64,000 nt of DNA. Source: Bifidobacterium mongoliense DSM 21395 (GTDB taxonomy: Bacteria > Actinomycetota > Actinomycetes > Actinomycetales > Bifidobacteriaceae). This document shows, piece after piece, positions 14,912 to 57,642 of this stretch. The stretch is taken from NCBI RefSeq assembly GCF_000741285.1, contig NZ_JGZE01000001.1, forward strand, positions 124,001 through 188,000. The letters run 5' to 3'. The notes under the pieces were generated by a model. The model saw nothing but the letters and a program-made list of their open reading frames with translations, ran no database searches and had not been told where the DNA came from. Positions within the stretch are counted from its first letter, which is position 1. The number at the start of each line of letters is the position of its first letter. A program made the position numbers and the translations under genes.

Positions 14912-15019
14912 GTTCTTTTTGTCCTCCTGGACGTTTCGTAGTTCGCCCGTGCCCTAGGCACCAGGCTCCCGCTACATTGTACTGGGTTTCTGGGTTACGT
15001 GCCACAGCGTGCCCTAAAC

Positions 15020-47183: not shown

Positions 47184-48017
47184 GTTGGGTCATCCTTTCC
47201 TCCGCGGCCAGCTGGTCGTGGATGCGCCGGTCCTCGTCCCATTCGGCCTGAGCCTTCTGCGTCTTGGTGAGATAGACGCCGAAAGGTCTCCCCCGCCTCG
47301 GTTCGTCGGCGTGCCTGCGGATCCAAGTGGAGAACGCCCTGTCGAAATCCTTGTACTTGTATTTGTTGCCGGTGGCGGCGATAGTGTCACGGAACTGGGC
47401 AGCCAGATCATCAACATCAACCTTCGCTTTGCCTTCGGATTCCATCTTGGTTGCGAGTTCGTAGTGGGATCGCTTCGGGGTCCAGTCGTCGGGAAGTTTC
47501 GAGCGAGAACGCGAAACTTGTTTCGCGGGTATGTTGTTCCCCTGTTCCCCTGTTCCCCTGTTCCCCTGTTCCCCTGTTCCAAGGCTGAACCACCGTCTGT
47601 ATGCGCGGAATCTCCGCGACTATTGTCGGTAAAACCGTGATTGCCGTAGAACTCCTTGTCTGGAGCCGATTCCGGGTCGTCAGGCGCTGGAAACCTTGAC
47701 GAAGCGCGACGTTCGTTCCTCTGATGCTCATCCCACCGGGTGATCGAGTAGAAACGCCTTTCATCGTTGATGTAGAACTCCACCGAGAAGGTGTTTGCAA
47801 CTTCCGTGAGTATGCGCGGAAATTCCGTGATAAACGTCGGTGATTCCGAGTCGTGTGGGAAAGCGAATGACATCAGCTCCATGGGAGTCCACTCCGCGCG
47901 TCCGTGGTCATCAGCCCAATTCCACATCGCTATATAAAGAAGTCTTGCCCATGGAGACGCTTTCGCAGTGGATGGAGACCGCCAAAACTCAGGCTTGATT
48001 GTCCTAATCCTTGCCAT
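47167..48017 (-). pseudogene. Phage replication initiator out of frame at an octanucleotide repeat
   Basis: N-terminus MARIRTIKPEFWRSPSTAKA and LLYIAMWNWADDHGRAEWTP is typical of phage replication-initiation proteins with a winged-helix start. After the repeat (47541-47580) the frame turns to nonsense. The natural C-terminal half (KLPDDWTPKRSHYELATKM, then FDRAFSTWIRRHADE) is in another frame ending at 47167. Removing one 8-base unit joins the halves into a 280-aa protein. As sequenced the gene is off. Confidence 0.85.
47541..47580. repeat. 8-bp tandem repeat (5 copies) inside the replication initiator
   Basis: Five perfect CCTGTTCC units (plus strand), with a degenerate unit before them. 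Unit length is not a multiple of three, so each gain or loss changes frame. Four or seven copies would restore the downstream reading frame. Confidence 0.93.
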
Positions 48018-53976: not shown

Positions 53977-54102
53977 CACATCTCCTTTCCTGTCGAAGTT
54001 TCCCGACATGGCATAACTATATACCACTTTGGGAAGAGATGCAACCGAAATGGTGAAGAATTTTATTTGACTTTCCCAAATTTGTATACCATAATGGGAA
54101 AC
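53977..54102. promoter_or_regulatory. Lysis-lysogeny switch: divergent promoters and operators
   Basis: Rightward: -35 TTGACT (54067-54072), 17 bases, -10 CATAAT (54090-54095). Leftward: -35 TTGCAT (54039-54044), 17 bases, -10 TATAGT (54016-54021). Half-sites built on TTTCCC/GGGAAA flank both: 53999-54011, 54024-54035, and an inverted pair at 54072-54101. The operator arms overlap both promoters. Confidence 0.82.
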
Positions 54103-54528
54103 ATGCAAACGAATATCATGGAATGGCTACGCAAGGTCACCAACGGCGACACCAAGAATGCGATCGCAGTCAGGTCCGACCTTCCCACCTCCACACTGAA
54201 CAGGCAATGGAACGATGAGAAGTTCTCCGCCGACGTGGTAATCTCCGTGGCGCACGCCTACGGCGCCTCTCCGATTGAGGGATTGAGCGCACTCGGCGTC
54301 ATCACACGCGACGACATCGAGCGTCTACGCAGCGACGATGCGCTCAAGGATGCTACCGACGACCAGCTTCTGCAGGAGCTCGCGCGACGCTTGGCCGATC
54401 AGCACGACGTGATCGTGGACGACCCAGCGAGCGCCTGGAACATGCCGGTCGGCGTACGGCTCGAGCCGGCTGCCTCCCATGACAAGCGAAAAGGGCAGGC
54501 CAAGGGAGTCGATGAGGAATACGCTTAA
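54103..54528 (+). CDS. Phage repressor, probably leaderless
   Basis: 141 aa. N-terminal helix-turn-helix (NAIAVRSDLPTSTLNRQWND), no protease or C-terminal S24 domain. Its promoter -10 ends 7 bases before the ATG, so the message would start at or next to the start codon, as in lambda cI. An in-frame ATG at 54094 lies inside the promoter and is not expected to be used. Followed by ImmA, which typically cleaves such short repressors. Confidence 0.82.
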   Translation: MQTNIMEWLRKVTNGDTKNAIAVRSDLPTSTLNRQWNDEKFSADVVISVAHAYGASPIEGLSALGVITRDDIERLRSDDALKDATDDQLLQELARRLADQHDVIVDDPASAWNMPVGVRLEPAASHDKRKGQAKGVDEEYA

Positions 54529-55615: not shown

Positions 55616-55716
55616 TCATATCCTCATGGCGCGAGGTGGAATTCGTGAGAATTACACCCCGCTAGTATTTCTGTTAAAGCTTTCTATTAACACTTACTGT
55701 TATTCCTTATATAGGT

Positions 55717-55864
55717 AGTCTGTACAGACTCCACCACCAGTCTCTACAGACTGCACCCTCCGTCTGTACAGACCGCACCCGCGTCTACACAGACCGCACC
55801 CCCTGAGTCTGTACAGACTCCACCCACCCGTAGTCCCTAGGGACGGCCGTTGTCTGTACAGACC
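55717..55864. repeat. Seven palindromic repeats (GTCTGTACAGAC type)
   Basis: Palindromes centred in 55717-55730, 55739-55752, 55761-55774, 55782-55795, 55806-55819, 55833-55844 (variant GTCCCTAGGGAC) and 55852-55863. Spacing is 19-27 bases, near two helical turns. Three or four are perfect 12-mers; others differ by one base. No coding sense. The region 55616-55716 before them is AT-rich. Confidence 0.93.
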
Positions 55865-55878
55865 ACAGGTGCTATATT
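55850..55878 (+). promoter_or_regulatory. Promoter overlapping the last palindrome
   Basis: TTGTCT, 17 bases, TATATT. The seventh palindrome covers the -35 end and spacer, so a protein binding it would block this promoter. Confidence 0.72.
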
Positions 55879-55904
55879 GGAAGAGAAATAAGAAAACCTC
55901 GGCG

Positions 55905-56084
55905 ATGGTGGAACATCCCGAGGCTATGGCAACAACTGAGATAGCAGTCGTTACGGTAACCACTATACCGCAGCGTCGCGGAAAGATAAACACATGGGTT
56001 ACCACAATTGCAGGATTGTGCAGCAACTTCCAAGCTCACGGACAATCTATCTTCCACACAATGGAGCTCAGACCGTTTCCATGA
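55905..56084 (+). CDS. Small protein coupled to the next gene (59 aa)
   Basis: MVEHPEAMATTEIAVVTVTT..., starting about 20 bases after the expected transcript start, with a weak ribosome-binding site. Its stop overlaps the ATG of the next gene (ATGA). No family recognised. May be a real small protein or a leader that controls the next gene. Confidence 0.5.
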   Translation: MVEHPEAMATTEIAVVTVTTIPQRRGKINTWVTTIAGLCSNFQAHGQSIFHTMELRPFP

Positions 56085-56512
56085 CGTTCGTCCACGACAT
56101 GCTGCAGACGGTAGCGCTCGCCAGCAACGACTACGTGACCGACGAGGAAATACAACGCCGGAAAGAAGACAGGGAAAACCTCGGCATGGACCCGATGGCG
56201 ATACCCCGCTACTGGTTCGGCAGTTGGGAGCATCTGGCGCAACTTATGTGGGAGAAGCCCACACCTGCCACCAGGAACCGGATACGCAGGGCATGGAGGG
56301 CGCTCGCAGAGATGGGCATTGCCAAACGATACTGTCGCATGACCATGCGCGGCTGGGAGTACACGCACCTGCTCACGATAGGCTGCGAGCAGGGCAACGA
56401 CATGTACGCTGGGCTCACCGACGACGATGTGGAAGACGATATCGAAAGTCGGCTACTTGGCGCGTATGAAGACCTTCGAGAGTGGCCGTATGCGCTCGAA
56501 TTGAGAGCCTGA
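56081..56512 (+). CDS. Winged-helix-like protein under the palindrome array
   Basis: 143 aa from ATG 56081; an in-frame ATG at 55994 is an alternative. Core PRYWFGSWEHLAQLMWEKPT then RNRIRRAWRALAEMGIAKRY looks like a DNA-binding winged helix. Probably the protein that binds the upstream palindromes, but not identified with any known replication or regulator family. Confidence 0.65.
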   Translation: MTFVHDMLQTVALASNDYVTDEEIQRRKEDRENLGMDPMAIPRYWFGSWEHLAQLMWEKPTPATRNRIRRAWRALAEMGIAKRYCRMTMRGWEYTHLLTIGCEQGNDMYAGLTDDDVEDDIESRLLGAYEDLREWPYALELRA

Positions 56513-56571
56513 ACGGCTATTCTTCCTTTTACGCCATTCAGCATCTCAACGATTGATCTTCGGATTCACCA

Positions 56572-56594
56572 GCCCCGCTTCGGCGGGGCTTTTC
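56572..56594 (+). terminator. Terminator after the 56081 gene
   Basis: AGCCCCGC-TTCG-GCGGGGCT then TTT; 44 bases before the convergent toxin gene end, so may serve both strands. Confidence 0.88.
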
Positions 56595-56638: not shown

Positions 56639-57160
56639 CTAGGTGTTTTTCTTGGCCGAAGGCCATATTTGATGTTTGGCATCCCACCATACAATGTGAA
56701 ATTCATTATCCGTTAAGAAGCCGTAGAGACGCTCCCTGCCTCCAAGTCTAAACCGAGCGATCGCATCTCCCTTCCTAGAATAGTAGTGCCCAAGTCTGCT
56801 GACAGGCTCTTGGTTTGGGCACAACGTGAAATCTTGATAAAGCTTGAATGCGTCATAGTCTCCTAATAGCTCACCAACGGTAAGAGTTTCAAAATCCTTG
56901 AGCTTTTCAAGGAGAAGGCCATGCTCGGGCTCACTCATACGTTTCAATGACCAAGGACAGTCATCTTCCATGTCTATGCAGTCAAACCTAAATACCAGAT
57001 ACTTTTTCCGTGGGTCCTGTGCAATTTCCCTAGCAGAACTCGGAACAACATAGGATTTAGGTTCCTCTCTCGCTGATTCGGGAACCGTGAATGATTGAAG
57101 TATAGACGCATTAACAGATTTCTTAGGATGCCGAACCTTATCCTTACCTTTATGTCCCAT
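56639..57160 (-). CDS. Putative toxin partner of the Panacea antitoxin
   Basis: 173 aa. Basic N-terminus (MGHKGKDKVRHPKKSVNASI), middle with KYLVFRFDCIDMEDDCPWSL, and C-terminus RYGFLTD-like FLTDNEFHIVWWDAKHQIW. The latter pattern is seen in some RNase-type toxins found next to Panacea/DUF4065 genes. No exact family recognised. 8 bases after the antitoxin stop. DNA is AT-richer than surroundings. Confidence 0.68.
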   Translation of the reverse strand: MGHKGKDKVRHPKKSVNASILQSFTVPESAREEPKSYVVPSSAREIAQDPRKKYLVFRFDCIDMEDDCPWSLKRMSEPEHGLLLEKLKDFETLTVGELLGDYDAFKLYQDFTLCPNQEPVSRLGHYYSRKGDAIARFRLGGRERLYGFLTDNEFHIVWWDAKHQIWPSAKKNT

Positions 57161-57168
57161 GGTCGCTC

Positions 57169-57606
57169 TTAGTCGGTCAAACCGCCATAGTATTCCGCGA
57201 TGTCTGCATTTTTGATTTCTGCAGATGAGCTGACTCCGGACGGCAGACCGTTCCTAGCATTCTTCCAGGGTGCCTCATGATGAGTCAACTGGCTTAGTTC
57301 ATATGCACCCATGTCGCCGTAGAATGACAGCACCCCATTCACTGTAGCTTGTTGGGTAGCGTCAAGTTTTGATGCATCACCGTTGATGTCGCCATCACAG
57401 ATTTTGAAGAGGCCCTTATGCTGATGGTACAGGTCTGGGCAAACCGGACCATTTGCCCACGCTTGAATCTCTTCAGGGAAAAGAGGCTTTTCATCCCAGA
57501 CGAGCGACCATGCCTGAGAGTAGTAGCACAGTTTCTGAAGCTTCATCGTCGTCATGGAATGTTTTTTCTTGAGAATATACGCAGCCACATCAAATACACT
57601 CGTCAT
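57169..57606 (-). CDS. Panacea-domain (DUF4065/SocA-like) antitoxin
   Basis: 145 aa from ATG 57606 with GGAGCG. Family motifs: MKLQKLCYYSQAWSLVW near the N-terminus and EIQAWANGPVCPDLY in the middle. Panacea proteins neutralise many different toxins, which fits the unknown neighbour. First gene of the pair, with a palindromic operator upstream. Confidence 0.88.
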   Translation of the reverse strand: MTSVFDVAAYILKKKHSMTTMKLQKLCYYSQAWSLVWDEKPLFPEEIQAWANGPVCPDLYHQHKGLFKICDGDINGDASKLDATQQATVNGVLSFYGDMGAYELSQLTHHEAPWKNARNGLPSGVSSSAEIKNADIAEYYGGLTD

Positions 57607-57642
57607 AGCTCGCTCCTCTCGCTTCAACTTTCCTAATGCATA

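Follow-up and report, generated by a model that had tools for sequence, protein, structure and literature searches.

Organization of the locus

The stretch of DNA analysed here (the window, 64,000 nucleotides from Bifidobacterium mongoliense DSM 21395) holds a prophage in which genes for an anti-repressor (minus strand), a repressor-like protein (minus), a second repressor-like protein (plus), an ImmA-type peptidase (plus) and an Ltp exclusion lipoprotein (plus) lead up to a small unit (plus) that is the subject of this report. On the 3′ side of the unit follow a Panacea antitoxin gene and that of its partner (minus), and then the integrase gene (minus). The two repressor-like proteins are called Cro- and CI-like from their place. 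A sequence-only reading of this DNA had set the unit between superinfection-exclusion and toxin-antitoxin genes, which agrees with the Ltp-type lipoprotein gene found upstream and the Panacea/SocA-like antitoxin gene and partner found downstream. The Panacea (SocA-like) antitoxin and its partner, a 173-aa protein weakly similar to the MAG6450 family and to PADLOC NsnC, occupy 56639-57627. The unit comprises the following features.

55665-55712, no strand: AT-rich tract, candidate DNA unwinding element (from composition and a period-13 repeat)
55718-55863, no strand: array of seven 12-bp dyads, candidate iterons and operator (from sequence, shuffles and a genome scan), at 55718-55729, 55740-55751, 55762-55773, 55783-55794, 55807-55818, 55833-55844 and 55852-55863
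55850-55878, plus: sigma-70-like promoter TTGTCT-17-TATATT (from a promoter scan; same layout in the close homologue L003)
55897-55923, plus: leader hairpin H1, preceded by an A-rich run and terminator-like if read on the minus strand
55962-55967, minus: candidate antisense -10 hexamer TATAGT, whose transcript would end at H1
55980-55985, plus: ribosome-binding site GGAAAG (from sequence)
55994-56512, plus: gene of a 172-aa protein (MGYHNC...), probable array-binding protein or initiator; start revised from 56081
56577-56589, plus: terminator-like hairpin closing the unit

The lytic initiator of the prophage sits elsewhere, at 47190-48017 (PHROG 2149, E 4e-46). Inside its gene, at 47535-47580, there are 5.8 perfect copies of TGTTCCCC as 8-bp repeats. 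This stretch is probably the lytic origin, because its identity to the prophage of genome G011 is 94% over 69 bp although the two initiators share 28% of residues over 239.

The dyad array

The seven dyads share the form GTCY-N4-RGAC and start 22, 22, 21, 24, 26 and 19 bp apart (range 19-26 bp). Six of them are GTCTGTACAGAC or at most two letters off, and the sixth along the array (55833) reads GTCCCTAGGGAC. Five dyads are perfectly palindromic; the two others, at 55740 and 55783, are broken solely within the central four bases, and the Y and R positions are complementary in all seven. The longest run of GTC-N6-GAC at spacings of up to 30 bp is seven, as against a maximum of two both in 200 dinucleotide shuffles of the window and in 2000 shuffles of 170 bp. 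Seven palindromes at about two-turn spacing, as described in the sequence-only reading, are thus confirmed far beyond shuffled sequence. Several sites so spaced are also what an iteron replicon would have, initiator binding being putative here.

The sites are restricted to one place. No copy of the 12-mer with up to one mismatch was found outside the array when its own genome was scanned, and the looser form GTCY-N4-RGAC recurs in the window as one lone extra dyad, at 14921. Repressor operators and stoperators are scattered over a phage genome, whereas this 12-mer is confined to the array; its absence elsewhere in the genome also rules out the site of a global regulator. Read-out by CI was rejected, since the repressor region (about 54000-54115) has TTTCCCA-like repeats, seen by eye, and zero GTCY-N4-RGAC dyads. 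A known structured RNA was ruled out, as Rfam matches at the array were all sub-threshold, and a decoy for other bifidophage origins was discarded, as the other 110 genus genomes searched held no further array.

One close homologue of the downstream protein was found (84% identity), at locus L003 in G011 (MAG Bifidobacterium sp. isolate UW_MP_BIF8_1), a genome of the same genus. The L003 gene sits between ImmA and integrase genes, as in the window, but the gene downstream of it differs. The earlier proposal had been made to depend on conservation of the array next to homologues of the gene, and L003 carries six dyads at the same place. Five of them are GTCC..GGAC, versus mostly GTCT..AGAC in the window. 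All 13 dyads of the two loci keep the outer four pairs, with position 4 complementary to its partner in each, while the central four bases vary. Arrays of this form occur in two of 112 genus genomes, and these are the two in which the gene has a close homologue. Because the sites differ between close relatives, keep their dyad beside the same gene and are absent elsewhere, the gene product is very probably the protein that binds them. The coupling of array and protein is well supported by these comparisons.

AT-rich tract, promoter and leader

The tract preceding the array is 75% A+T (window mean, 40.5%), which places it within the richest 0.05% of window stretches. It contains three tandem 13-mers (55671-55683, 55684-55696 and 55697-55709), followed by TATAGG. 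Period 13 scores 32 of 39 in these repeats beside the dyads, and none of 300 shuffles matches it; the period-13 repeat in the L003 tract is likewise unmatched in 300 shuffles. When the best of seven periods is taken for each shuffle, one of 120 reaches the period-13 score, in the window and L003 each. An AT-rich element with short repeats, such as adjoins the sites of an iteron replicon, is thus present as a sequence feature. DnaA-box-like sites number 31 in the window versus 41 expected, and the two one-mismatch sites in the unit both lie within the gene.

The last dyad (55852-55863) covers the 3′ part of the -35 hexamer as well as the spacer's first half. This agrees with the promoter under the last site of the sequence-only reading. 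The promoter scan, over 2.8 kb, found three sites like TTGTCT-17-TATATT versus 2.3 expected by chance.

In the leader, the strict hairpin test for H1 is reached by three of 100 shuffles of the window sequence. The stem is kept in L003 with one compensatory (double) change and one matched extra pair, in the alignment as read, and the leaders of the two loci are more alike than the rest of the unit. No good -35 was found for the antisense TATAGT. A short leader ORF or conserved leader peptide was rejected, as the reading frame is broken in L003.

The gene and its protein

ATG 55994, which gives a 172-aa protein, is a more likely translation start than 56081. The close homologue largely conserves the 29 residues ahead of 56081, with synonymous changes; MGYxN is the usual family start, and GGAAAG stands eight bases upstream. 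The start at 56081, given in the sequence-only reading, is thus probably wrong.

The same reading held that the protein matches no recognised family, and searches of Pfam, PHROG, NCBIfam, PADLOC and PDB with the window protein likewise gave no match better than chance. Its description as a winged helix fares less clearly. The conservation pattern of the relatives, as read, and one weak Rrf2 match (E 0.01, Pfam, in one of 15 family members) favour it, but the AlphaFold model is of low confidence (pLDDT 36.7 at full length and 59.3 for a fragment). The best Foldseek match to this model, a transcriptional repressor, has an E of 5.0.

An iteron replicon would have an adjoining gene homologous to a known initiator, and such homology was not found. 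None of the 15 family members showed it in Pfam or PHROGs, hhalign of the protein against initiator alignments gave no match, and the best PDB match of a 12-member profile had an E of 0.79. Homologues in phage and plasmid records were absent or at chance level (E 2-9; plasmid protein matches E 2-5).

A wider family in Bifidobacteriaceae

A profile of the two close sequences, run against 189 family genomes, matched beyond the known two just G009, which is doubtful (E 0.008, with stops); the other 395 phylum genomes gave no match. When 55640-55993 was used as a DNA query, the leader hairpin turned up in front of a different gene, L123 in G038 (E 4e-4); two further leader matches (L125 and L126) were judged to be in unrelated coding sequence. 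With the L123 protein as query, 19 places in 16 of 189 Bifidobacteriaceae genomes were found. A profile of 15 members then matched 18 of the 189, one of which (G111, inside a 900-aa frame) is doubtful, and a search of 396 genomes across the order matched four, all of this genus.

The family comparison covers 13 of the 19 places together with the window and L003. These 15 members are about 14 independent ones, as L157 and L158 are near-identical; L144, L145, L146, L147, L148 and L149 were excluded because they were truncated, weak, interrupted by a stop or identical to another copy. The shared pattern, MGYxN...GWxxxAxxxG...RIS...L...GLIKxL...NAxxLLLLGDDEEN, may be that of a winged helix, as we read it. 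The window pair is joined to the other 12 members by hhalign (90%, E 1.6e-6), although an HMMER search with those 12, at E 0.001, failed to recover the window gene. Homology of the pair to the rest is indicated by this hhalign match together with the MGYxN start, the leader DNA match and the shared layout.

An AT-rich tract (45 bp, 71-84% A+T, the richest 0.4% at each locus) is found in all 15 members, starting 224-325 bp before the gene start, and its direct repeats are reached by at most four of 120 shuffles in six of the 15. Member-specific dyad arrays unmatched by any of 40 shuffles occur in five (window, L003, L151, L154 and L159), and in each of these five a site overlaps the best-scoring promoter candidate. 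The arrays of the other ten are reached by 3-35 of 40 shuffles. An array that beats shuffles is thus present in the close homologue and in three of the 13 remote relatives compared.

A leader hairpin after an A-rich run, 88-98 bases before the start, passes the strict test in 11 of 15 members (0-3 of 100 shuffles in ten; L163 is weak, at 8 of 100). The test fails in L156, L157, L158 and L161, each of which has a hairpin there by eye. All 15 leaders have a minus-strand TAnnnT at a like place, a motif that 53% of shuffled 48-base stretches contain somewhere, and no -35 accompanies it. The ribosome site is predicted to be paired (at least 0.79) in 12 members and at about 0.3 in the window, L003 and L150; a shorter stretch of L150 folds with the site paired. 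RNAalifold on the 15 aligned leaders gave no consensus structure, so the evidence from the leader comes from single-sequence folds and the strict hairpin test.

An integrase-like ORF lies within 3.3 kb in ten of 15 contexts, about 240-730 bp off in seven of these, and an ImmA gene within 3.2 kb in eight of 15, the contexts being of unequal length and some short.

Similar arrays in phage initiator genes

Two pattern scans of viral contigs returned 24 and 69 stretches, or 91 loci besides the window's own contig. An array with at least three concordant sites is held by 52 of these, and in 51 (all except L014) an ORF of at least 100 aa covers it. From 121 ORFs listed over the arrays, 56 were hand-picked as likely sense frames and scanned, three loci giving more than one. 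PHROG 22470 'replication protein' was matched by 36 of the 56 and O-like or replication-initiation families by others, which suggests that the GTCC/GTCT dyad-array grammar is mostly that of phage initiator iterons. These phage proteins have no detectable similarity to the window protein. At L031-L098, GTCC-N4-GGAC arrays at 22-23 bp steps lie within DUF1376/PHROG 22470 initiator genes of many phages and are likely intragenic origins.

A candidate replication module

The explanation we favour, tentatively and short of calling it probable, is that 55665-56589 is a self-contained, prophage-borne replication module of plasmid style, with iterons, a melting region and an autoregulated initiator. 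Under this proposal the 172-aa protein would bind the seven sites, one dimer per site, and the filled array would melt the adjoining AT-rich 13-mers, leading to theta replication of an excised or freshly infecting circular genome. By occupying the last site, the protein would repress transcription of its own gene. Synthesis would be kept low during integration by the structured leader, perhaps aided by a short antisense RNA that terminates at H1.

A plasmid-style replicon in the lysogeny region is favoured because an array of sites, 13-mers and an autoregulated gene are the parts of an iteron origin and because the predicted leader layout resembles the one proposed for Pseudomonas REx-C modules. 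Array and gene occur together, in two of 112 genomes, and are conserved as a unit in the close homologue. Sites restricted to one place would be expected of an origin or an autoregulator, not of a regulon. The 13-mers abut the array in the order seen in RK2 oriV and lambda, and the antisense-terminator-like hairpin with its candidate antisense -10 resembles plasmid copy control. The sequence-only reading had suggested a self-contained regulatory or replication unit. Array and gene are conserved together at L003; replication is something we infer from the parts. The earlier comparison with iterons is strengthened by the AT-rich 13-mers beside the array and by the like arrays inside phage initiator genes.

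The known systems differ from the unit in several respects. RK2 oriV has iterons beside four 13-mers, and its initiators are winged-helix proteins (PMC4081077); as in that system (oriV/TrfA), a row of putative initiator sites stands beside AT-rich tandem 13-mers. Unlike RK2, however, the window has dyad 12-mers rather than direct-repeat iterons, no DnaA-box enrichment and no Rep match. The lambda origin also has iterons beside an AT tract (PMC7466680). O-type origins (DUF1376/PHROG 22470, O-like) share with the window the dyads at 22-23 bp steps, some sites being identical (GTCCCTAGGGAC). In contrast to them, where the array is inside the initiator gene, the window array is upstream of the gene and outside the lytic replication region, and the proteins have no detectable similarity. 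For REx-C, the proposed layout is a hairpin that terminates an antisense RNA whose promoter lies in a second hairpin, further downstream and ahead of the initiator gene (PMC5304414). The leader resembles such plasmid control leaders (REx-C and ColE2) in its 5′ hairpin, which would end a predicted antisense RNA from a downstream hairpin, but it has no conserved leader peptide, its antisense RNA is a prediction and the -35 is missing.

Several observations weigh against a replication module. There is no Rep family match, no plasmid relative and no DnaA-box enrichment, and a lytic initiator with 8-bp repeats of its own is already present in the prophage. Arrays are weak in most relatives (ten of 15), AT-tract repeats are found in six of 15 and the hairpin test fails in four of 15. 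Occlusion of the ribosome site is predicted in 12 of 15 members yet not in the window, L003 or L150, and the antisense promoter is without a -35. Finally, an origin active within an integrated prophage would do harm if it were not under tight repression.

Alternative explanations

The strongest competitor, though we consider it rather unlikely, is that the array serves as a multi-site operator for a transcription factor that controls its own expression and tunes lysogeny. Such a protein would bind its own array cooperatively and repress or activate its own promoter, and perhaps its neighbours, with the AT tract as an upstream promoter element. The overlap of sites and promoter in the window, L003 and three relatives fits, as does the position near CI-like, ImmA and integrase genes. 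The lack of initiator homology points the same way, with mild support from the weak Rrf2 match in one of 15 members. However, no other target with up to one mismatch exists in the genome, so that little beyond the gene itself would be regulated. Seven sites are many for autoregulation, and the AT tract present in 15 of 15 members at 224-325 bp from the start is left unexplained; in the window the array separates this tract from the promoter.

A defence system resembling BstA/aba, in which the protein blocks replication of incoming phages while a cognate array titrates it on the phage's own replication and so confers self-immunity, appears distinctly improbable. The unit does lie in the lysogeny region beside an exclusion lipoprotein and a toxin-antitoxin pair, its sites vary among members, and BstA/aba provides a precedent for a prophage gene with a cognate cis DNA element (PMC8585504). 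Lambda iterons and a short RNA can also block lambda replication (PMC3349717). Against this, none of the 15 members has a KilA-N match in Pfam, and the window protein and three relatives have no PADLOC match. The Pfam result is not final, given that KilA-N in BstA needed remote-homology methods (PMC8585504). As described there, aba is a 63-bp stretch over the bstA start with no site array, unlike the seven-site array and AT-rich tract of the window (PMC8585504). The AT-rich 13-mers and the antisense-type leader would also be unexplained.

An excisionase or integration-control protein, that is, a small DNA-binding protein encoded near int, is an explanation to which we give little credence. The ten contexts with an integrase-like ORF within 3.3 kb are in its favour, but five of 15 contexts, some of them short, are without an integrase, and the window sites lie 3′ of int, at a distance of 3.3 kb from its 5′ end, and not at the prophage end. 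At 153-195 aa, the proteins are also large for an excisionase. A site for partition (a centromere) or for incompatibility, bound by its own protein, would explain an array upstream of the presumed binder's gene, but it is the least credible reading, as an integrated prophage does not need partition and no ParA- or TubZ-like partner was found among the 19 prophage proteins scanned.

Implications and related observations

Returning to the replication module, it is conceivable, though we would not presume it, that a second replicon, of plasmid type and located near the integrase, is present in many temperate phages of bifidobacteria, each of which would be an integrating phage-plasmid. Such a replicon would combine iterons that differ from member to member with an unwinding element, an initiator of a new family and control at the RNA level. 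The phage could then be maintained or multiplied as a plasmid, either once excised or before it integrates, independently of its lytic origin. The proteins would then form a new initiator family, bifidobacterial temperate phages would have two origins, one lytic and one plasmid-like near int, and compact replicons would be available for bifidobacterial vectors. If instead a regulator or a defence system is the right reading, the locus still offers a protein family new to the literature, together with cognate DNA sites that evolve.

No family name was found in Pfam or PHROGs (15 members), NCBIfam (window protein) or PADLOC (window protein and three relatives). Among the matches listed from the open PMC literature, none describes the unit or the family, and the excerpts of two bifidobacterial prophage papers mention neither (PMC6109161; PMC8705816). 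An iteron-like origin with its initiator is a known kind of element; what appears to be new is its location within a prophage close to int, together with the protein family and the combined control.

L151 (G119, C13) has two members separated by about 1.5 kb, of which the second lacks an in-frame MGYxN start, and a Panacea gene is found 3′ of a family member there, as in the window. On contig C18 of the window's own genome (L169, 48170-48259), 30 degenerate residues remain of a second family member, beside a gene read as holin-like; we read them as the trace of an older prophage.
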